The position numbers were made by a program, and so were the translations under genes. From Burkholderia sp. Bp8992 (lineage in GTDB: Bacteria; Pseudomonadota; Gammaproteobacteria; Burkholderiales; Burkholderiaceae), in assembly GCF_003853705.1 (NCBI RefSeq), contig NZ_QTQI01000029.1:1-64000 (forward strand): a stretch of 64,000 nucleotides of DNA. The letters are read 5' to 3'. Positions 123 through 46,414 of the stretch are shown piece after piece. Position 1 is the first letter of the stretch. Every line of letters begins with the position of its first letter. The notes under the pieces are model-generated. The model was not told the origin of the DNA. It saw nothing but the letters and a program-made list of their open reading frames with translations, and ran no database searches.

Positions 123-887
123 TTACTGCGGACCGAGTTCCTGCGCGGACGTATCGGCGTCGTTGCCCTGCGCGACGAGCACGTGGATATCGTTCGGCGT
201 CACGTCGCCGACCCCGCCCGACGGAATCGTCAGCAGCAGCCAGTCGGCGTTGTTGTTGATGGTGACCGGCGCGGTCTTGAGGATCGGCGTCTTGCTGCCG
301 GCCGTCGTGACGATCACCTGGTAGCTGCCGCCGTTCAGGTAGTTCGAATCCTGCGTCGTGGCCGGCACCGCGTTCTGGTAGGCCGCGCCCGCCATCGTCG
401 GGCTTTGCGTCGTGATGTCGGTGCCGGGCGGGACGACGTACACGTCGACGTTCTGCGCGTTCGGCGACGCGTTGAAGCTGCGCACGCGCGCCTTGTCCGA
501 CAGCAGGCCCTTGTCGTACGGATCGTCGATCACGGAGATCAGCGACGTCGTGCTCGGCAGCGCGATCGTCGTGTAGTGATGGCCGTTCGCCGCGCTGAAC
601 GTCTGCGCGGCGACGGTTGTCGTCGTGCCTGAGACGTCGTAGCTCGCGTTCTGCGTGCCCGAATCGACGTCGTGATAGCGCGTCACGCCCTTGTACGCGA
701 CGCCGGCCTGGTCGAGCTTCGCGTTCAGGTAGTAGTCGAGATTCGGTCCGGCCGGCACCGCGTTGATGAAGCGCGCCTGCGGCTTCGAGATGCCGAGTAC
801 GGTGCCGACGTCGTTGCCGTCGCCGCCGCACGCCGCGAGCACGGAAACGGCGGAGCACAGGGCCACCAGCGTTCGTATTGATTTCAT
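123..887 (-). CDS. DUF4397 domain-containing lipoprotein
   Basis: The protein has 254 residues and starts MKSIRTLVALCSAVSVLAAC, a signal peptide ending in a lipobox (LAAC), so it should be lipid-anchored and face the periplasm or outer membrane. The body carries two related beta-rich stretches (FINAVPAGPNLDYYLN near residue 40 and FNASPNAQNVDVYVV near 150), the pattern of DUF4397 proteins. A much longer frame runs upstream through nicT in another phase. This ATG is preferred because it precedes the signal peptide and has GAGGAC about 5-10 bases before it. It lies downstream of nicT on the same strand, separated by about 300 bases with no gene, so co-transcription is doubtful. The biochemical role is unknown. 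Confidence 0.85.
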   Translation of the reverse strand: MKSIRTLVALCSAVSVLAACGGDGNDVGTVLGISKPQARFINAVPAGPNLDYYLNAKLDQAGVAYKGVTRYHDVDSGTQNASYDVSGTTTTVAAQTFSAANGHHYTTIALPSTTSLISVIDDPYDKGLLSDKARVRSFNASPNAQNVDVYVVPPGTDITTQSPTMAGAAYQNAVPATTQDSNYLNGGSYQVIVTTAGSKTPILKTAPVTINNNADWLLLTIPSGGVGDVTPNDIHVLVAQGNDADTSAQELGPQ

Positions 888-6606: not shown

Positions 6607-7647
6607 TCAGGCGGGTTGATCGGTCACGCGGCCGTCGCGCACGACGGTCTCGCCGTCGAGTTCGACCGTGCAGCGGCGCAGCGGGATGTCGATGTGGCAG
6701 GTGGTCGTGCGGTTGCCGCCGCCTTCGTTGTTCGGGCCGAGCGAGAACAGGAAGTTGCCCTCGAATGCGCGCGCATCCATCCCGATCGTCGCCTCGCGGT
6801 CGTACAGCCCGAGCGTCGACCAGCGCGCACGCGGCTGCAGCCCCCAGCCGATATGCGAGATCGCATAGCCTTCCGGGTCGGTGAACGTTTCCATGTAGTC
6901 GCGCAGCAGGTCGGCGTCGACGCCGCCTTCGATGCGCGTCGCGTAGCCGCCTTCGACGGTCAGCACGATCGGTTCGCTCACGTAGTGCTTCTGCGGCAGC
7001 AGGATGTCGCCGCGATCGATGACGATCGTGCCGCGCGCGGTGCGGTCGTTCGGGTAGGTCAGCGCGAAGCCGCTCGGCCAGTGGTCCCAGCGGCCCGGCG
7101 CGTCGACGAAGCCGTATTCGGCCGTCGGCGGGAACTCGCCGAGCGGGCACACGAGCGCGGTGCCGGCCGCCGAGGTCACGCGCATCTCGCGGGCAGCCGC
7201 GATTTTTTTCGACGCGGCGAGCACGCGCGTGCGGTCGGCCGGCGTCGGCACCATCCGCACGAGCATCTCGGGCGGCTCGACCGCGAGCAGGATCTTCGTG
7301 CCGGACTTCAGGATCTCGTGCTGCTCGGGCGAGAACAGCAGCGTCATCAGGTCGAGCACGAGGTCGCTCTCGCGCAGCGCGGCGATCGCGGCCTTGTTGC
7401 CGGTCAGCGGCGTCGTGCCGAGATAGGCGAGCGGGTCGCGGCTGAACGCCTTGTCGCCGTTCACCGGCGGCAGGTCGAGCCGGTTGACGATCGCGCCCAT
7501 CGATTGCGTCGCGATCAGCGCGCACGACAGCGTCTGCGGGTGGGTGGCCGCGCTCGTCAGGATCGTGACGGTCTGGCCCGGTTCGAGGCGCGACAGCGTG
7601 AGGACCTGCTTCCACGCGTCGATCAGTTGGGTATCGCTGACTGGCAT
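6607..7647 (-). CDS. nicX: 2,5-dihydroxypyridine 5,6-dioxygenase
   Basis: A 346-residue Fe(II)-dependent extradiol-type dioxygenase that opens the ring of 2,5-dihydroxypyridine to give N-formylmaleamate. NicX belongs to a small family related to leucyl aminopeptidase-type folds rather than the classic extradiol enzymes. The whole length looks typical of the family, including candidate metal-ligand segments SHIGWGLQPRARW and GPNNEGGGNRTTTCHIDIPL in the C-terminal third. It lies between nicD and nicF with short gaps (48 and 18 bases). The assignment rests on family resemblance plus cluster context. Confidence 0.88.
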   Translation of the reverse strand: MPVSDTQLIDAWKQVLTLSRLEPGQTVTILTSAATHPQTLSCALIATQSMGAIVNRLDLPPVNGDKAFSRDPLAYLGTTPLTGNKAAIAALRESDLVLDLMTLLFSPEQHEILKSGTKILLAVEPPEMLVRMVPTPADRTRVLAASKKIAAAREMRVTSAAGTALVCPLGEFPPTAEYGFVDAPGRWDHWPSGFALTYPNDRTARGTIVIDRGDILLPQKHYVSEPIVLTVEGGYATRIEGGVDADLLRDYMETFTDPEGYAISHIGWGLQPRARWSTLGLYDREATIGMDARAFEGNFLFSLGPNNEGGGNRTTTCHIDIPLRRCTVELDGETVVRDGRVTDQPA

Positions 7648-7695
7648 CGTCGGCTCCGGTAAAGGCGTATGGGAAAGAGGGCGGGCGCCGTGCGA

Positions 7696-8526
7696 TCAGG
7701 CCGCGAGCGGTGCGCCGAGGAAGTCGCCGAACGCCGCGTAGAAGCCCGCGGCGTTGTCCCACGGAATCATGTGGCCGGCGTCGGGCACGCGCACGTGCCG
7801 CATCGACGGCGTCGCACGCTGCAGTTCGGCGACGTCGTCGTCGCGCACCACGTCGCCGCGCTCGGCCGTGATCAGCAGCGACGGCACGGCCAGTTGCGCG
7901 GCATCGGCGTGGAAATCGTCGGTATGGAATCCTTCGTACGACGCGCGCACCGCACGCTCGTCGCAGGTATGCAGCCATTCGGCGCGCAACTGCAGCTCGG
8001 CGTCGGTCCAGGTCGGGCAGAACGCGCGCATGCCTTCGGCGTCGGTGCCGGCGCGGGCGAGCGCCATCGAGTCGATGTACCACGGCAGCTTGCCCGGATA
8101 GTCGCGGCGGTTCGGGCCCGATACGGGCGGGTCGACGAGGACGACGGAGGCGAGCCCACGGATACCGTGCCGGGCCGCGCGCGCGGCGATCCGCGCGCCC
8201 ATCGAATGGCCGACGAGGCTCGTGCGCGGCAGGCCGAGCGCGGCGACGAGCGCCGCGATGTCGTCCGCCTGCGCATCGAGGCCGTAGTCGAGCGACGGCG
8301 ACGCGTCCGACAGCCCGCGGCCGCGCACGTCGAGCACGTAGGTGTCGAATGCCGCGCCGAACACTTCGCCGACGAAACCCCACGTGATCGCGGGGCTCGT
8401 GATGCCGGGGATCAGCACGATCGCCGAGCGCGACGCGCGCGCGCCGGTCGTGCCGCCGTAGCGCAGGTAGTGCTGGCGGATGCCGTTCGCGCGGATGTTC
8501 GCGCCGTACAGGAAAGTCGAGGACAT
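7696..8526 (-). CDS. nicD: N-formylmaleamate deformylase
   Basis: A 276-residue alpha/beta hydrolase that splits N-formylmaleamate into maleamate and formate. The nucleophile elbow is VGHSMGARI with Ser108. The acid is probably Asp132 (VLVDPP) and the base His252 (DAGHMIPWDN). The oxyanion segment is LIPGITSPAITWGFVG. It follows nicE by 27 bases and precedes nicX, consistent with one transcript. Generic alpha/beta hydrolases look similar, so context decides the substrate. Confidence 0.88.
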   Translation of the reverse strand: MSSTFLYGANIRANGIRQHYLRYGGTTGARASRSAIVLIPGITSPAITWGFVGEVFGAAFDTYVLDVRGRGLSDASPSLDYGLDAQADDIAALVAALGLPRTSLVGHSMGARIAARAARHGIRGLASVVLVDPPVSGPNRRDYPGKLPWYIDSMALARAGTDAEGMRAFCPTWTDAELQLRAEWLHTCDERAVRASYEGFHTDDFHADAAQLAVPSLLITAERGDVVRDDDVAELQRATPSMRHVRVPDAGHMIPWDNAAGFYAAFGDFLGAPLAA

Positions 8527-8553
8527 GAATGGACTCCGTCGGAAGGGCCGCGC

Positions 8554-9306
8554 TCAGTACGCGCCGGACAGCAGCGCGCCGGCGCCGGGCACGACGGGCT
8601 CGAGGTCGAGCTCGCGCAGCATCGCGTAGGTGGTCGCGATCGCGGCCGTGACGACCGGCTTGCCCGTCATCGCCTCGACCTTCGCGACGGCCGGCAGCGA
8701 CGGCATCTGCACGCAGGCGGACAGCACGATTGCGTCGGCGTCCTGGTACGGCAGCGTCTTCACGATGTCGGGCAGGCGTGCCGGATCGTGGCGGCCGACG
8801 TCGAGGTTGTCGGGAATCTCCAGCGCGCGATAGGCGAGTACGTCGAAGCCTTCGTTGCGGATGTAGCCGACCACGAGCTCGGTGAGCGGCAGCATGTAAG
8901 GCGCGACGACGACGATGCGCTTCGCGCCGATCACCTTCAGCGCGTCGACGAGCGCGCCCGCGCTAGTCAGCACGGGCGCCTGCGCGCCATTGTCGGCCGT
9001 GTGCTTCGTCAGGCGCGCCTGCGACACGCGGTGGTAGCCGTGGCCCATCGCCATGATCGCGACGAGGCACGCGTAGCCGAGCACGTCGACGCGCGCATCG
9101 CTCAGTTCCACCGCGCAGCGGTCGGATTCGGCATCCATTGCCGCGAGTTCTTCCTTGACGACCTTCTTCATCCGCATCCGGCTCGAGTGGTACGTGAAGC
9201 GCTCGGGACGGATCGTTTCGCGCAATCGCAGCATCGCGGGAATCTCGGTTTCCATCGTCGTGTTGGAACTCGGCACGATCTGGCCGATGCGGTAGGTCTT
9301 GCTCAT
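8554..9306 (-). CDS. nicE: Maleate cis-trans isomerase
   Basis: A 250-residue Asp/Glu racemase-superfamily enzyme that isomerises maleate to fumarate, the last step of the pathway. The two catalytic cysteines of the family are Cys80 (LGYACLVAIMAMGHG) and Cys198 (VLSACVQMPSL). The start MSKTYRIG is preferred over an upstream in-frame ATG at 9402, because that extension would run through the putative operator at 9378-9391. It is the first gene of the minus-strand operon nicE-D-X-F-B and diverges from nicC. Confidence 0.9.
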   Translation of the reverse strand: MSKTYRIGQIVPSSNTTMETEIPAMLRLRETIRPERFTYHSSRMRMKKVVKEELAAMDAESDRCAVELSDARVDVLGYACLVAIMAMGHGYHRVSQARLTKHTADNGAQAPVLTSAGALVDALKVIGAKRIVVVAPYMLPLTELVVGYIRNEGFDVLAYRALEIPDNLDVGRHDPARLPDIVKTLPYQDADAIVLSACVQMPSLPAVAKVEAMTGKPVVTAAIATTYAMLRELDLEPVVPGAGALLSGAY

Positions 9307-9377
9307 GACGGGAGGCTCCGTGTCGGTAAGGGTGGGGCGGCACGCGGGTGCGGGATCGCCGGATGTCGAGCAAAGTC

Positions 9378-9391
9378 TAGTGTGTACATTT
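9378..9391 (+). promoter_or_regulatory. Putative NicR operator upstream of nicE
   Basis: TAGTGTGTACATTT shares its first ten bases with the sites before nicT and nicC. It lies 72 bases from the nicE ATG, mirroring the 70-base distance of the other intergenic site from nicC. Function is inferred. Confidence 0.55.
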
Positions 9392-9521
9392 GAAAATGGC
9401 AATGAATCAAAATGAGGTGTAACGCAGCGAGTCCATTGGTGTGTGCGGGTTTTTGAGGAATTATCGGTATTTTCCCGAATGCAGTGACGACGCTCGATAA
9501 TCCGCTTGTCCTGAATAAATT

Positions 9522-10762
<1,241 letters not shown>

Positions 10763-40540: not shown

Positions 40541-40921
40541 ATGGCGATTGATTGTTTCCTGGTCGGAATGAATCGGGCTGCGGTTCCTGCCGGGGACAGA
40601 TCGCCGATATCGCGAAGGACGGCGCAGGCCTGCGGACGCCATTACGGCGCATACAAGAGCCAGCGAGCCGCCGCGAACGTGGCGCGCGTCGAGGCACTGC
40701 AGTTCGAGGTCGTCACGTTCGATGTCGAGGATGCGCAGCATGCCGGCGAAATCCGTGCGTATCTGACTGCCGCTGGTACGCCGATAGGCCCTTACGACGC
40801 GTTGATTGCAGGGCAGGCACGTGCCCGGCAGCTGGTGCTTGTCACGCACAATGTCCGTGAGTTCGAACGTGTCCCGCGGCTGCAAGTCGAAGACTGGCTC
40901 GTCGAGCCGAACGAAGGCTGA
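40541..40921 (+). pseudogene. vapC-type PIN-domain toxin remnant
   Basis: The last 85 codons or so read as the C-terminal two-thirds of a VapC ribonuclease: YGAYKSQRAAANVARVEALQ, then PIGPYDALIAGQARA and LVTHNVREFERVPRL with late acidic residues. The N-terminal part, which should give the first catalytic Asp (LLDTN-type), is unrecognisable, and the segment from ATG to YGAYKS is about 20 residues too short, pointing to deletion and frame loss. No vapB antitoxin is visible upstream. Confidence 0.6.
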
Positions 40922-41323
40922 ACGGCCGATCATGCCGGTTCGACCTTGACGAACCCGCAGGGTGTACGCCGCACCAATTATAAAAATGATGCCAAAACAA
41001 ACGGGCTCGCCGATAATGCGCAAACGTTTTACCGGCATTGAATAAAACCGGTTTTGCGGATCATGAATAAACCAATGAATATCCGCTGTTTCGCCGATCC
41101 TGCAATCTCCGCAGCCGCGCCAGCCCTGGAAGCCAGGAGTTAACGGCCAATCCGCGAAAAACTTTAGAGTTTTTCCACCGCAATTATTCATTTCATTTTT
41201 GTCAATGACCGATTGATTTTCGGTCATCGGACAGTCATACACCATCCCCGATAATTCGGCGCTCACATTCTTTCAATAGACCAAAGGGCGATCGAAGCCG
41301 GATCGCTGCGGGGAGCTGTACTC
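40922..41323. other. 402-bp AT-richer leader of the chemosensory-like operon
   Basis: No gene is supported. GC content is clearly below the surroundings. GCCGATAA at 41009-41016 equals the -10 element of flagellar sigma-28 promoters, but the -35 match is poor. A hairpin-like repeat lies at 41205-41227. Another GATAATTC-like patch is at 41250-41257. Confidence 0.45.
41205..41227. promoter_or_regulatory. Inverted repeat upstream of the chemosensory-like operon
   Basis: ATGACCGA-N7-TCGGTCAT is a perfect 8-bp inverted repeat 97 bases before the kinase gene. It may be an operator or an mRNA hairpin. Confidence 0.4.
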
Positions 41324-43711
41324 ATGACCATCCGTCATCGCATTACGCTGCTAGTCGTCCTGACGTTCTTCGCGCTGTCCGCGATCGGCATCTATGCCGT
41401 GTACCAGACACGCAAGAGCGCGTCCGAGGTGCGTCAGGTCACCCAGGGCATCGTGCCGAGCGCGCTCGCGTCGGCCGACCTCGTCGCCGATGTGAAGAAC
41501 ATCCAGATCGCGACGATGACGCTCGTCTATGCGCCCGACGCGAACACCGCCGCGCAGGCGCGCGACGAGCTGAAGGCGAAGCAGGCCGCGCTGCGCGCCG
41601 CACTCGACGTGCAGGCGAAATCGGCGGTCGGCCGCGCGCAGGAAGGCCTCGTCGCGCAGGCGAAGGACAGCGTCGCGAACTATTTCGCGGCGATCGACGA
41701 CACCGTGAAGATGAAGGCGGACGGCAAGGCCGAGATGGCGCAGGCCTACCTGTTCGCGAACGTCGCGCAGTATCGCGACGAACTCGAGAGCATCGTCGAC
41801 ACGCTGCGCGTCGAGAAGAACCGCCAGAAGGACGACGCGATCAGCGCGCTGAACGGGATGCTCGCCACGACGGCGACCGCGATCGCGGGTGTCGCCGGCA
41901 CGGTGATCGTGCTGCTGACCGCCCTCGGCTTCGTGTTGTATCGCCAGATCACGCGCCCGCTGATCGGGATGCAGACGGCGATGAGCGAGATCGCGACGAG
42001 CCAGGATTTCACGCGCCGCGTGCCGGTGGGCCGGATGGACGAAATCGGCCATTCGATCGTCGCGTTCAACGGGATGATCGAGAAGATCCAGGAGAACGCC
42101 GCGCAGCTCAAGCAGAAGACGGCCGACATCCAGGCGATGCTGCAGAACATGCAGCAGGGCATCCTGACCGTCGTCGAGGGCGGTGTCGTGCATGCGGAAT
42201 ATTCGGCGTACCTCGAAACCATCTTCGAGACGAACGACATCGCCGGCCGCGACCTGATGGCGCTCGTGTTCGACGATTCGGCGATCGGCGCCGACGCGCG
42301 TTCGCAGGTCGATGCGGCCGTGCACGCGTGTCTCGGCGAAGACAGCATGAACTTCGAATTCAACGAGCACCTGCTCGTCAACGAAGTCGCGAAGCGGATG
42401 CCGGACGGCCGCGAGAAGTGGCTCGACCTGAGCTGGTCGGCGATCACCGACGAGACCGACACGGTCGTGCGCCTGATGCTGTGCGTGCGCGACGTGACCG
42501 AGATCCGCGAGCTGACCGCGCAGGCCGGCGAGCAGCAGCGCCGCCTCGAGATGATCGGCGAGATCCTGTCGATCAGCCAGGACAAGTTCCACGACTTCGT
42601 GCACAGCGCGAAGGGCTTCCTCAGCGAGAACGAGCGGATGATCCGCCAGCACGAACGCGCCGATCACTCGATCGTCGCGGCGCTGTTCCGCAACATGCAC
42701 ACGATCAAGGGCAATGCACGCACGTACAGCCTGCAGCACCTGACGAACATCGTCCACGAAGCGGAGCAGGCGTACGAATCGCTGCGTCGTGCGGACGGCG
42801 GCCCCGAGTGGAACCGCGACGCGCTGATGGACGACCTGGCGCGCGTGCGCGACGCCGTCGAACACTACGCGACGATCAATGCGGTCACGCTCGGTCGCAG
42901 CGGCGAAGCGGCGCAGGGCGGCGCCGACTTCCTGATGGTCGAACGTGCGCATATCAGCGAAAGCCTGCGCGTGCTCGACGGCGCCGATCCGGCGAACGTG
43001 TCCGACTGGCACGCGGCCCGCGATGCCGTGCGCCGCATGCTGAGCCAGCTCGGCACGCAGGGCATCGGCGATGCGCTCGGCGGCGTGATCGAGTCGCTGC
43101 CGTCGCTCGCGGCCGAACTCGGCAAGCCGGCGCCCGTCGTGCATATCGACAGCCACGGCCATCGCGTGCGCAGCGAGATCGTCGCGACGCTGAAGAACGT
43201 GTTCATGCACCTGCTGCGCAATGCGATCGACCATGGCATCGAATCGTCGGAAGAGCGGCGCGCGGCCGGCAAGGCGGCGTCCGGCACGATCGACATCGCG
43301 GTCGGCGTGGGCGGCGGCGAGCTGTGGTTCGTGCTCGGCGACGACGGCCGCGGCCTGGCGCTCGACCGGATTCGCCGCATCGCGCGCGAGCGCGGCTGGA
43401 TCGAGGCGGGCAACGAAGCGGCGCTGTCCGACGAGGATGTCGCCGAGCTGATTTTCCGGCCGGGCTTCTCGACCGCGCAAGCGGTGACCGAAGTGTCGGG
43501 CCGCGGCGTCGGCATGGACGCGGTGCGCAACTTCCTGAAACGCGACGGCGGCAATATCGCGCTGCGTTTCACCGACGATCGCGCCGGCGCACCGTATCGC
43601 ACGTTCGAGACGATCGTGTCGCTGCCGGCGCGCTTCGCGGCGGACGCTGCCGTCGACGGCGCCGGGCATGAGCAGCGTGCGCGCATCGCGGATATCGGCG
43701 CAGCGGAGTGA
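41324..43711 (+). CDS. Membrane CheA-like histidine kinase (HAMP-PAS-Hpt-HATPase)
   Basis: A 795-residue inner-membrane sensor. TM1 is residues 7-27, an MCP-like four-helix periplasmic sensor domain follows, and TM2 is 183-206. Then HAMP (207-259), a PAS-like domain (270-395), and an Hpt domain with phosphoacceptor His459 (MHTIKGNART). The HATPase has N box LRNAIDHGIE (about 631), G1 DDGRG (673-677), F box FRPGFST and G2 GRGVGMD (726-732). This is the P1-P4 plan of CheA, but there is no CheW-like P5 domain at the C terminus; the protein ends about 40 residues after the ATPase. It should phosphorylate the CheY at 46049. First gene of a five-gene operon. Confidence 0.85.
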   Translation: MTIRHRITLLVVLTFFALSAIGIYAVYQTRKSASEVRQVTQGIVPSALASADLVADVKNIQIATMTLVYAPDANTAAQARDELKAKQAALRAALDVQAKSAVGRAQEGLVAQAKDSVANYFAAIDDTVKMKADGKAEMAQAYLFANVAQYRDELESIVDTLRVEKNRQKDDAISALNGMLATTATAIAGVAGTVIVLLTALGFVLYRQITRPLIGMQTAMSEIATSQDFTRRVPVGRMDEIGHSIVAFNGMIEKIQENAAQLKQKTADIQAMLQNMQQGILTVVEGGVVHAEYSAYLETIFETNDIAGRDLMALVFDDSAIGADARSQVDAAVHACLGEDSMNFEFNEHLLVNEVAKRMPDGREKWLDLSWSAITDETDTVVRLMLCVRDVTEIRELTAQAGEQQRRLEMIGEILSISQDKFHDFVHSAKGFLSENERMIRQHERADHSIVAALFRNMHTIKGNARTYSLQHLTNIVHEAEQAYESLRRADGGPEWNRDALMDDLARVRDAVEHYATINAVTLGRSGEAAQGGADFLMVERAHISESLRVLDGADPANVSDWHAARDAVRRMLSQLGTQGIGDALGGVIESLPSLAAELGKPAPVVHIDSHGHRVRSEIVATLKNVFMHLLRNAIDHGIESSEERRAAGKAASGTIDIAVGVGGGELWFVLGDDGRGLALDRIRRIARERGWIEAGNEAALSDEDVAELIFRPGFSTAQAVTEVSGRGVGMDAVRNFLKRDGGNIALRFTDDRAGAPYRTFETIVSLPARFAADAAVDGAGHEQRARIADIGAAE

Positions 43712-43715
43712 CGAA

Positions 43716-44459
43716 GTGATCGTGCAGGCGTGGATGATTCAGGTGGCCGCCGCGCTGGCGGGCGGTGCGGTCGTCGCGGTGGCGGCGGTCGTGTTTCGCG
43801 TGACGCGCCGGCGGCGCGTCGCGGCGATGGCGCACGACGCGGATACGTTGCGCGGCGCGCTCGCCGCGGCCGACGCACGCGCGAAAGAGGCGGCGTCCGC
43901 GCATGCGGCGGCGGCCGACGCCTGGGCGCAACGCGAGGCGCAGCTCGAGGAGGCGCTGGCGCGCGAGGCGTCCGCGGCCGGCACGCAGCGCGATGCGCTG
44001 CAGGCGCTGTCGGCCGACCGCGCGGCGCTCGCGCAGCATGCGATGAAGATCGCCGACGAAGCGGCGCGCCTGCGCGGCCTCGCCGGCACGTTCGAGCGCT
44101 GGCACGAGCAGATGATCTCGCTGACCACGCAGAACCAGGACATGCGCGTGAAGAACCAGGAGCTGTCGGCGATCGTCGCGCACGTGTCGATCGTGTCGCT
44201 GAACGCGTCGATCGAAGCCGCCCGCGCGGGGTCGGCCGGGCGCGGCTTCTCGATCGTCGCGAGCGAGGTGCGCGGGCTGGCCGCGCGCTCGCAGCAATTG
44301 TCGAATAGCTATCGCGACAGCCTGAACCGCAACGATCTCGTGACGGCCGCCACGTTCCAGGACATCCAGGCCGGCGGCAAGATGATCACGGCCGCGCTCG
44401 CGACCGTCGAGACGCTGGCCGGGCAGCTGCACGCACGCATCGAAGGAGAGGCGGCGTGA
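43716..44459 (+). CDS. Minimal methyl-accepting-chemotaxis-like signalling protein
   Basis: A 247-residue protein with one membrane segment (about residues 7-29), a long alanine-rich coiled coil, and a short MCP hairpin tip (SIVSLNASIEAARAGSAGRG, about 158-177, then FSIVASEVRGLAARSQ). There is no periplasmic domain and the coiled arms are much shorter than in a full receptor. The start is GTG at 43716 with GGAG seven bases before it, four bases after the kinase stop; an ATG at 43668 would overlap that gene. Methylation sites cannot be confirmed. Confidence 0.75.
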   Translation: MIVQAWMIQVAAALAGGAVVAVAAVVFRVTRRRRVAAMAHDADTLRGALAAADARAKEAASAHAAAADAWAQREAQLEEALAREASAAGTQRDALQALSADRAALAQHAMKIADEAARLRGLAGTFERWHEQMISLTTQNQDMRVKNQELSAIVAHVSIVSLNASIEAARAGSAGRGFSIVASEVRGLAARSQQLSNSYRDSLNRNDLVTAATFQDIQAGGKMITAALATVETLAGQLHARIEGEAA

Positions 44460-45037
44460 TCAGCGCGCAGGCGAAGGCCGGCTTCGAGCGGATCTTCTTC
44501 GACGCGGCGCGCACGCGGCTCGCGTCCGGCGGCGCGTGCGACATCCGGCCGTCCGCCGGCCACGAGCATGGCGGGCACGATCGCTCGCATGCGCGGTCGC
44601 GGTCGATGCCGAAGGTGCCCGAGCATGTCGCGGTGCTGACGATCTCGGCGCTGCATTTCCGCCTGCTGCTCGCGCTGCGCTTCAGCGACGACGACGCGAC
44701 GCGCCGCCGTTTCGCCGGCGCGAGTGCCGGCACCAGCAGCCAGCGGCCGCTGCCCGAGGCATTCATGGAAGTCGCGAACCTGTGCTGCGGCGCGATCAAC
44801 CAGGCGCTGACCGTGCCGTTTCCCGATCTCGGGATGTCGACGCCGACCCTGCTGAGCGGCGCGAGCATCGACTACCTGCCGGCGCTCGCACCCGATCACG
44901 TGGCCGCGTACGACCTGACGCTCGACGGCGACGTGCGGGTCGGCGCGACGCTGTGCGTGTGCGCGAACGCGCCGGTCGATTTCCATGTGCCGGAAACGGC
45001 CGCCGTGGATACCGGCGGCGAGCTCGAACTGTTCTGA
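44456..45037 (+). CDS. CheX-like phosphatase-family protein
   Basis: A 193-residue protein starting at a GTG that overlaps the previous stop. The C-terminal 130 residues fit the CheX/CheC fold, with ExxNxxxG at 105-112 (EVANLCCG); the fourth residue upstream is Glu101, where Asp or Ser is usual. A histidine-rich segment (GHEHGGHDRSHARSRS) is near residues 35-50. It ends in GGELELF, a tail shared with the next protein. Likely dephosphorylates CheY; not proven. Confidence 0.65.
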   Translation: MISAQAKAGFERIFFDAARTRLASGGACDIRPSAGHEHGGHDRSHARSRSMPKVPEHVAVLTISALHFRLLLALRFSDDDATRRRFAGASAGTSSQRPLPEAFMEVANLCCGAINQALTVPFPDLGMSTPTLLSGASIDYLPALAPDHVAAYDLTLDGDVRVGATLCVCANAPVDFHVPETAAVDTGGELELF

Positions 45038-45059
45038 CCGACCATCAGGAATCCATGAG

Positions 45060-46019
45060 ATGACCGAAGACCAACCCGTCAGCAAGGTGCTCGTCCTCGA
45101 CGACAGCCGCGCACACGCCGATGCGATCAAGCGCTTCTGCGACGAGCACAACCTGGTCGGCCTGACCGTGCGGCGCAGCCGGCTGCTGAAGGTGCTGCGC
45201 TCGAACATCGACCTCGGCGCGATCCTGCTGGCCGAGGATTACGGCGGCTCGCCGGCCGAGAGCGCGATCATCGCGACGCAGATCGATGCGCTGCGCCCCG
45301 AGCTGCCGATCATCCTGCGCCGCGAATCGCTCGCGTCGCGCGACGGGCTGCCCGATGCGCTCGCGCGCGTCGCGTGCGCGGCCTACGTCGCGGACGACAT
45401 GACGCCGCTCGCGCGTGCGATCGACGAATACCTGTTCGGCCGCGACTATCCGAACGCGCTCGTGCGCGGCATCTCGGAGATCACCGAGGCGCGCATCGAC
45501 AGCCTGTTCCCGGGCATGGCGATCGAGCACGAGACGCCGTGCATCGTCCGCGACCAGATCATCTTCGGCGAAGTGTTCAGCCTGATCGCGCTTGAAAGCG
45601 CGTGGTGCCGCGGCTACATGCTGCTGCAGACGAGCGAGCAGCCGCTGCTCGACATGATCGGCGGCACGCGCGAGGGCGGCCGCGCGCCGGATTTCCGCGA
45701 CGTGAACAGTGTGCTCGGCGAACTGACGAACCTCGTGTGGGGCGCGTTCAAGAACCGCTATCTCGGCGATGCGGAGGCACTGGCGCGCCATCCGGTGCAG
45801 GTGCCGCTCGTCGTCAATCACAAGCAGAAGTTCATCTCGTTCGGCGGCGACTGTCCGCAGCTCTGCTTCAAGTACCGGATGACCGACCCGGCTTCGGGAC
45901 GCTCGGTCCGTCTCGACCAGCGTTTCGTGTTCAGCCTGAGCTGGTCGCCGGAGGATTTCCGCGAATCGGTGCAGGACGTCGGGCCGATGGTCGAATCGGG
46001 CGAACTCGAACTGTTTTGA
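45060..46019 (+). CDS. Degenerate receiver fused to a CheX-like domain
   Basis: A 319-residue protein. Residues 8-128 resemble a receiver (KVLVLDDSRAHADAIKRF) but the Thr and Lys of the switch are missing (IILRRES, YVADDMTP), so it is probably a pseudoreceiver. Residues 135-319 hold a CheX-like domain with the full phosphatase signature SxxxExxNxxxG: Ser217, Glu221, Asn224, Gly228. The C terminus is SGELELF. It lies between the shorter CheX-like gene and cheY. Confidence 0.7.
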   Translation: MTEDQPVSKVLVLDDSRAHADAIKRFCDEHNLVGLTVRRSRLLKVLRSNIDLGAILLAEDYGGSPAESAIIATQIDALRPELPIILRRESLASRDGLPDALARVACAAYVADDMTPLARAIDEYLFGRDYPNALVRGISEITEARIDSLFPGMAIEHETPCIVRDQIIFGEVFSLIALESAWCRGYMLLQTSEQPLLDMIGGTREGGRAPDFRDVNSVLGELTNLVWGAFKNRYLGDAEALARHPVQVPLVVNHKQKFISFGGDCPQLCFKYRMTDPASGRSVRLDQRFVFSLSWSPEDFRESVQDVGPMVESGELELF

Positions 46020-46048
46020 AGTCAGCAACAAGGAAAGGGGAATACGAC

Positions 46049-46414
46049 ATGGCAAAGATTCTGGTGGTCGACGATTCGGGCACGGTGCGCGACGAAGTCG
46101 CGGGCTTCCTGCGCAACAACGGGCTCGACGTCGCGACGGCCGTCGACGGCAAGGACGGGCTCGCGAAGCTCAAGGCGACGCCCGGCGTGCGCCTCGTGAT
46201 CAGCGACGTGAACATGCCGAACATGGACGGCCTGACGATGGTCGAGAAGATCCGCGGCGAACTGGCGAACACGGCGGTCAACGTCGTGATGCTGACGACG
46301 GAAAGCAGCCCGGCGATGAAGGAGCGCGGCAAGGCGGCCGGCGTGAAGGGCTGGATCGTGAAGCCGTTCAAGGGCGACGCGGTGCTCGACGCGCTGAAGA
46401 AGCTCGCGGGCTGA
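46049..46414 (+). CDS. CheY-like single-domain response regulator
   Basis: A 121-residue receiver only. Asp8/Asp9 bind metal, the phosphoacceptor is Asp53 (VISDVNMPNMDG), and the switch residues Thr83 (VVMLTTESS) and Lys105 (WIVKPF) are intact. AGGAAAGGGG precedes the ATG. There is no output domain, so it must act by binding a partner protein. It is the last gene of the operon and the expected substrate of both the kinase at 41324 and the CheX-like phosphatases. Confidence 0.85.
   Translation: MAKILVVDDSGTVRDEVAGFLRNNGLDVATAVDGKDGLAKLKATPGVRLVISDVNMPNMDGLTMVEKIRGELANTAVNVVMLTTESSPAMKERGKAAGVKGWIVKPFKGDAVLDALKKLAG

Follow-up and report, generated by a model that had tools for sequence, protein, structure and literature searches.

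CheA kinases are commonly assumed to depend on CheW and on receptor arrays, and the locus described here raises the question of how a kinase with a CheA-type core might serve in a gene set that encodes no CheW. The window, that is, the whole stretch of 64,000 nucleotides analyzed (Burkholderia sp. Bp8992, assembly GCF_003853705.1, contig NZ_QTQI01000029.1, positions 1 to 64,000), carries at 41324-46414 a block of five tightly packed open reading frames (ORFs) on the plus strand, encoding in order a membrane kinase, a small protein with the hairpin tip of a methyl-accepting chemotaxis protein (mini-MCP), a first CheX-like protein (CheX-like 1), a degenerate receiver fused to a CheX domain (called RecX here) and a CheY-type single receiver. 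A preceding sequence-only reading had proposed such a set, with a kinase composed of an MCP-like sensor, HAMP, PAS, Hpt and HATPase but no CheW-like domain, and had noted the lack of CheW, CheR and CheB in the block. The five genes are borne out by the ORFs and Pfam together, the composition of the kinase by Pfam, the length of its C-terminus and a structure model (the last being the source of the PAS assignment), and the missing components by zero Pfam matches to CheW, CheR or CheB across the five block proteins. What had been taken for two CheX-like proteins holds insofar as the ExxN pair occurs in both families, the second protein being instead a fusion of a pseudo-receiver with CheX. We give a probability of roughly 0.6 to the view that the block is a self-contained module, in which the kinase phosphorylates CheY and the twin CheX phosphatases undo this modification.

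A CheA-type core on a membrane sensor

Pfam matches in the window kinase comprise 4HB_MCP (E-value, 7e-11), HAMP (1e-8), Hpt (6e-7) and HATPase_c (5e-9); PAS is matched below the cut-off, and a PAS-like pattern of strands and helices is seen in the structure model (mean per-residue confidence, pLDDT, 81; predicted template-modeling score, pTM, 0.43). The Hpt domain is a four-helix domain. Profile–profile alignment with CheA (hhalign, 100% probability) covers P1 and P3-P4 and stops at the end of P4, and the best solved-structure matches of the kinase are CheA chains. Both Hpt and the ATPase are kept in 38/38 block kinases by Pfam, with His459 of Hpt and Asn633 and Asp673 of P4 invariant in all of them. 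The sensor is variable, matching 4HB_MCP in 17 of the 38, TarH in one and 7TMR-DISM in one, and being without a match or cut short in the rest; these sensor counts, like those of HAMP, are lowered by rows shortened at the N-terminus through contig ends or the choice of start (L078, L091 and L134, with 409-590 residues).

The block kinase is without a CheW domain. A hidden P5/CheW domain was ruled out by three observations: the Pfam CheW domain was found in 0/38 diverse block kinases, as against 24/25 ordinary CheAs of the same bacterial class used as a control (high-scoring matches of a class-sample kinase search, called CheA from their Pfam domains); no more than 43 residues extend past the profile match in 79/79 kinases from the 80 loci examined; and no additional beta domain is present beyond residue 768 in the structure model. 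The P3 domain (H-kinase_dim) is likewise matched by Pfam in 0/38 block kinases, as compared with 25/25 CheAs. Since the CheA profile aligns partway through P3 and the model has two short helices at residues 541-574, the kinase probably retains P3 in a reduced form. No match to HisKA, the DHp phospho-acceptor domain, was found among the 38 kinases at E ≤ 0.01. In a tree of P4 domains, the 25 CheAs are set apart, with a support of 100/100, from the 38 block kinases and from the two stand-alone kinases described below; the bootstrap is not fully settled. Judged from its sequence, the kinase is a CheA P1-(P3)-P4 core mounted on a membrane chassis of sensor, HAMP and PAS.

Two CheX families, one with a pseudo-receiver

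A CheX domain is found in 39/39 RecX proteins (Pfam E-value for the window protein, 4.5e-9). CheX-like 1 of the window matches CheX at 0.016, below the cut-off, and 10 of the 36 members of its family match at E ≤ 0.01. The ExxN pair, which we take to be the catalytic pair of CheX phosphatases, is nevertheless kept in 39/39 RecX and 36/36 CheX-like 1 proteins, among which the identity to the window protein falls to 47% and 27%, respectively. Catalysis by both families is favored, because the pair is present in every row despite this divergence. CheX/CheC-like proteins are among the relatives with solved structures. Residues ~1-124 of RecX are predicted to adopt a receiver fold of five alternating strands and helices (pLDDT 79-92 over residues 11-120). 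When its residues are read against CheY, the phospho-Asp place is held by Glu in 33/39 RecX proteins (Glu59 in the window), by Asp in 3 and by other residues in 3, and the Thr/Ser place by Arg in 37/39.

The two CheX families also have a C-terminal tail in common, G[EA]L[EDQ][LF]F, which ends 68/78 CheX-like 1 and 77/80 RecX proteins and is absent from the remaining three proteins of these loci (0/78, 0/79 and 0/79). The tail of CheZ binds CheY, and by analogy with it we infer that the GELELF tails may serve a docking partner shared by both CheX proteins.

A CheY unlikely to switch the flagellar motor

The last protein of the block is matched by Pfam Response_reg at 2e-23, and Asp53 and Trp102 are present in 74/74 of the rows counted (those of exactly 121 residues, out of 79). 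Its best solved matches are PDB 4H60 and 4HNR (1.7e-25), which from their PDB codes and the residues in Table 3 of PMC3774744 are CheY4 of Vibrio cholerae, a protein that failed to bind FliM in the pull-downs of the same paper. Read against that Table 3, the block CheY has Ser, Pro, Lys and Ala in place of the FliM-facing residues K91, K92, I95 and K119 of Escherichia coli CheY. Because the block CheY resembles a CheY4 that did not bind FliM and differs at the FliM-facing residues, a role as a direct flagellar motor switch is unlikely. The block genomes are mostly flagellated: FliM is encoded in 40 of the 45 block-genome handles tested (44 genomes, G340 and G607 being the same by identical matches), and the five without it are titled as metagenome-assembled genomes (MAGs). 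In a sample of the family, FliM is present in 96/96 block genomes vs 136/203 genomes without the block (Fisher p ~1e-13), an association in which kinship and genome size are confounders. According to PMC8789113, a motility suppressor carried a secondary mutation in VC0377, a V. cholerae gene of the CheX family.

A chemoreceptor hairpin without a detected ligand domain

The mini-MCP has a single transmembrane segment and a hairpin tip that matches solved MCP structures; MCPsignal is matched in the window protein at 1e-14 and in 38/38 family members, and no ligand domain was detected by Pfam. Its ORF is open from 43668. An alternative GTG start at 43716, four nucleotides past the kinase stop codon, may be the genuine one, since relatives align from there and two relatives checked also have GTG. 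Eleven tip residues (N179, A180, I182, E183, A184, A185, R186, G188, R192, G193 and F194) are identical in 38/38 members. The position of the QTN triplet, presumably the usual residues preceding an MCP tip, is occupied in most of the 38 by His/Gln/Asn, Val and Val/Ile/Leu. The TATFQDIQAGGKM stretch that follows the tip has F230, Q231, Q234, G237 and K238 invariant in 38/38. A CheZ-like reading of this FQDIQAGGK stretch was dropped, as the Asp-xxx-Gln spacing that we took to be the hallmark of CheZ is absent. By Tsr numbering, the C-terminal arm presumably ends ~30 residues short of the usual methylation site. As we read its sequence, the hairpin would have been retained to meet some partner different from CheW and P5, the usual pair.

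Conservation of the five-gene order

A profile search with RecX of a genome collection yielded 315 stretches that encode relatives, of which the best 80 were used for locus counts. The neighborhood search that the sequence-only reading had suggested found its five-gene order conserved: kinase, mini-MCP, CheX-like 1, RecX and CheY follow one another on one strand in 78/80 of these best loci, and since the whole order is so widely kept, the block is not a chance arrangement. The exceptions are a locus of Gallionellales (L088), with kinase, RecX and CheY, and one of Caballeronia sordidicola (L142), with RecX alone (6947-7936). In 20 further loci, all five genes are unbroken in 16, complete with a broken RecX in one, reduced to four genes in one and to RecX in two; in three of the 16 (L054, L063 and L064, of genus g35), the second CheX protein is without the receiver-like domain. 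The five-gene set is conserved across many Betaproteobacteria, the names including Propionivibrio, Dechloromonas, Azonexus, Sulfuritalea, Rhodoferax, Janthinobacterium, Noviherbaspirillum, Pandoraea, Trinickia, Caballeronia, Paraburkholderia and Burkholderia, and is also found in two metagenome assemblies labeled as the methanotrophs Methylobacter and Methylovulum. In Paraburkholderia xenovorans LB400 (L097), the block is located on chromosome 2. RecX occurs in 96/299 genomes of the family (6/25 genera, the nearest genome, G001, included) and in 4/274 genomes of the class. A MAG titled Akkermansia muciniphila (L144) carries the entire block; probably either the record is mislabeled or its bin is mixed.

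Alignments consisted of the window protein with 37 kinase, 38 RecX, 37 of 47 mini-MCP and 35 of 39 CheX-like 1 representatives, drawn from a clustering of the proteins of the 80 loci at 75-80% identity. Among 37 representatives, the average difference is 43-59% per protein and 18% for CheY. Across 37 loci, the pairwise distances of the five proteins are correlated (r 0.35-0.79, above all of 500 shuffles), as expected of joint inheritance; such a correlation is alone no proof of interaction.

Several loci depart from this pattern. In G572, a four-gene core without the kinase is accompanied by two kinases of the subfamily, with longer sensors, that stand alone elsewhere (L180, 6720-10004; L181, 6467-9745). 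In the class sample, kinase matches spanning both Hpt and the ATPase occur, among the matches listed (three candidates scored per genome), only in the 4 genomes that have RecX, G572 among them. This restriction and the split arrangement of G572 suggest that the kinase is tied to the core and that kinases are exchangeable inputs to it. In the decayed block of G565 (L182, 7719-11283), transposase-like ORFs come after a truncated kinase, mini-MCP and CheX; the RecX gene is broken in two Burkholderia genomes (L069 in G012, and G032:C3:757075-758036); G249 has a lone RecX, and G566 a second, lone copy.

Surroundings of the block

The features located in the window are collected in Table 1. The genes of the block are separated by a 4-nucleotide gap (the mini-MCP start at 43716 being assumed), a 4-nucleotide overlap, a 22-nucleotide gap and a 29-nucleotide gap, in this order.

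Table 1. Features of the five-gene block, of its kinase and of the sequence on its 5′ side. Positions are those of the window, except where kinase residues are given.
Feature	Position	Strand	Basis or distinguishing residues
Membrane kinase, 795 residues	41324..43711	+	ORF, Pfam, profile alignment, structure model
Kinase, first transmembrane segment	residues ~7-25
Kinase, 4HB_MCP sensor
Kinase, second transmembrane segment	residues ~187-205
Kinase, HAMP	residues 205-257
Kinase, PAS-like region	residues ~278-390
Kinase, Hpt (P1)	residues ~419-522		His459
Kinase, P3-like short helices	residues ~541-574
Kinase, CheA-type P4 ATPase	residues ~592-768
Mini-MCP	43716..44459	+	One transmembrane segment, coiled coil, MCP hairpin tip, family-specific TATFQDIQAGGKM helix
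CheX-like protein 1	44456..45037	+	ExxN = E105/N108, C-terminal GELELF
RecX, degenerate receiver + CheX fusion	45060..46019	+	ExxN = E221/N224, C-terminal GELELF
CheY-type single receiver	46049..46414	+	Asp53, Trp102
FliA (sigma-28)-type site, near-perfect	41140..41166	-	TAAAGTTT-N11-GCCGTTAA, points away from the operon
Conserved patch	~41220-41240		GTCATCG-N5-GTCATA-like
Shared patch	~41012-41035		AAAACGTTTGCGCATTATC, minus-strand reading
PIN-domain (VapC-like) gene	40571-40918	+	Pfam 1.2e-8

A FliA-type site with at most two mismatches is located 184-250 nucleotides 5′ of the kinase in 37/73 loci, that of the window included. It is found in Burkholderia, most Paraburkholderia and Caballeronia, and only 4 matches occur elsewhere in the 1.09 Mb of these loci; four whole Burkholderia genomes contain 7 matches at ≤1 mismatch, of which 4 are this site by their coordinates. 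The conserved site emerged from the opposite strand, which had served as the control for a sigma-28 scan of the operon strand. On the operon strand itself, the scan made no clear case for a sigma-28 promoter (score ≥10 in 5/75 upstream stretches vs 3.6 in shuffled sequence; score 9 in 30 vs 19.2). The idea that the site drives a divergent ORF, or a small RNA, that is itself conserved was rejected, the leftward sequence being unconserved in a 16-locus alignment. From its sequence, the FliA-type site may serve as a divergent promoter of the flagellar class or be read in some other way. The conserved patch between it and the kinase is present in Burkholderia and, less fully, in Paraburkholderia. 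The AAAACGTTTGCGCATTATC patch is common to several Burkholderia loci, and we take it to resemble a LacI/PurR-type operator.

Besides the PIN-domain gene just 5′ of the block, a carboxylesterase-like gene is found upstream in the ORF and Pfam scan of the window; a small ORF, an ORF without a Pfam match, a LysR regulator and a major facilitator superfamily transporter lie on the 3′ side. The window lies near the B. cepacia complex: in a plasmid collection, the 16 kb around the block match a B. cenocepacia record with 92% identity and 93% coverage and one of B. arboris with 94% and 82%. Rfam and tRNA scans of the 64-kb window gave no matches. The flanks, sampled as the nearest two ORFs on each side in 25 loci (86 ORFs, one ORF of >1300 residues omitted), provide no candidate for a recurrent output gene, no family occurring in more than 3 of the 86 among the 25 of 98 families listed. 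No recurrent cheR or cheB family was found in these flanks either, single neighbors being possible as 25 of the 98 families are listed; MCPsignal is matched by 2 of the 86.

Discussion

The features described above can be assembled into a predicted signaling route. A dimer of the membrane kinase would sense through its swappable N-terminal module and relay the signal, by way of HAMP and PAS, to the CheA-type P4 domain, which would phosphorylate His459 of the kinase's own Hpt, and the phosphoryl group would then be transferred from His459 to Asp53 of the operon CheY. Two CheX-type phosphatases would strip phosphorylated CheY (CheY-P), both probably docking through the C-terminal GELELF peptide, and the inactive receiver of RecX, with Glu at the phospho-Asp place, may either mimic CheY-P or dock on Hpt. 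For the mini-MCP, anchored in the membrane, a role as a scaffold or modulator of the kinase that works without methylation is probable. As its output, CheY-P would act on some target that is not FliM, in bacteria that are flagellated. More tentatively, and as a possibility to which we give clearly less than even odds, the block may be a CheW-independent chemosensory system, in which a methylation-free, membrane-anchored MCP hairpin regulates a receptor fused to a CheA core, and an active CheX and a pseudo-receiver–CheX, docking through a common tail, set the lifetime of a CheY-P with a non-switch target.

The sequence-only reading had gone further in proposing a kinase that senses directly and has no need of the receptor array, with phosphatase control and a lone receiver as output. 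A directly sensing kinase, phosphatases and a lone receiver fit the parts found; freedom from the receptor array is left unsupported, because the MCP tip is kept in 38/38 mini-MCPs, CheW is encoded elsewhere in 45/45 block-genome handles, and a CheW gene lies near the block in 1/80 loci. The block might instead be an accessory of an ordinary array, the mini-MCP tip binding the CheW/CheA of the genome and coupling the kinase to it, so that the pathways cross-talk. We consider this unlikely, although it draws on the eleven identical tip residues, on the CheW counts just given and on the presence of FliM in 40/45 handles and in 96/96 block genomes of the family sample (vs 136/203). It is also in line with L088, where mini-MCP and CheX-like 1 are absent, a 777-residue ORF with an MCP-like tip adjoins (7663-9993, minus strand) and a CheW-like ORF (6.7e-24) is located ~6 kb from the kinase, RecX and CheY genes; because of these neighbors, the genes of L088 may function together with components of an ordinary array. 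Against an array accessory stand the kinase without P5, the replacement of the QTN triplet in most mini-MCPs, the confounding of the FliM association by kinship and genome size, and the scarcity of cheW at the locus: with a profile built from 24 CheAs, a CheW-like ORF was detected in one of the 80 block loci (L088) and none in the window, vs 24/25 CheA loci.

It is less probable still that the kinase and CheY are an ordinary sensor kinase/response regulator pair, with the CheX-like proteins and the mini-MCP as scaffolds and CheY as a phosphate sink or as a feed into another pathway. The Gallionellales variant without mini-MCP and CheX-like 1, the lack of an output domain in CheY and the divergence of CheX-like 1 (Pfam 0.016) would agree with such a pair, whereas the ExxN pair in every row of both divergent CheX families and the occurrence of the five genes together in 78/80 loci do not. 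A decaying or accidental block without joint function is largely refuted and very improbable: broken or partial copies (G012, G032 and G565) and lone RecX genes (L142, G249 and the second copy in G566) are outweighed by an order intact in 78/80 loci despite divergence, by invariant catalytic residues and by correlated distances of the five proteins. Returning to the self-contained module, several of the observations given weigh against it, namely the genomic CheW and the retained MCP tip, the array-like neighbors of L088, the weak CheX match of CheX-like 1 and the reach of the class-sample kinase search, with its three candidates per genome and counts taken from the matches listed. To these are added the RecX model, parts of whose CheX half are poorly predicted (10-residue blocks down to pLDDT 37), and the mini-MCP of a further locus (L052), which ends in ELDF, so that the tail is not confined to CheX proteins everywhere.

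The components of the block are worth comparing with those of known chemosensory systems. With CheA, the block kinase shares Hpt (P1), a P3-like linker and the P4 ATPase in the same order, whereas it is without P5/CheW and Pfam H-kinase_dim and has a membrane sensor, HAMP and PAS of its own. In PMC10782961, CheW is present in 100% of 13,673 CheAs and is named a core domain of all CheAs, a figure that is partly so by construction since the archaeal set, at least, was gathered through the CheW domain. No description of the five-gene operon was found in the searches made of the open-licence PubMed Central literature. The CheX domain and ExxN pair are those of the CheX/CheC phosphatases, but the block has two such proteins, one of them fused to a degenerate receiver, and both with a GELELF tail outside the CheX profile match. 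The mini-MCP resembles MCPs in its hairpin tip and differs from them in its single transmembrane segment, the absence of a detected ligand domain, its short C-terminal arm and the lack of CheR and CheB in the block. The block CheY shares the TTE-S/T-SP and GW(I/L)VKPF stretches with V. cholerae CheY4. In contrast to classical chemosensory systems, there is no cheW, cheR, cheB or full receptor among the five genes. A CheA-type core kept without a CheW domain, on a sensor that varies with the lineage, provides a natural experiment on the contribution of the array to such a core, in a setting where an MCP hairpin is retained beside the kinase, and the block may be an intermediate form linking two-component with chemosensory systems. 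Altogether, each of the parts belongs to a known kind, and the literature searches returned no description of their combination, a CheA-type core with a built-in sensor and no CheW domain within a conserved set of five genes.

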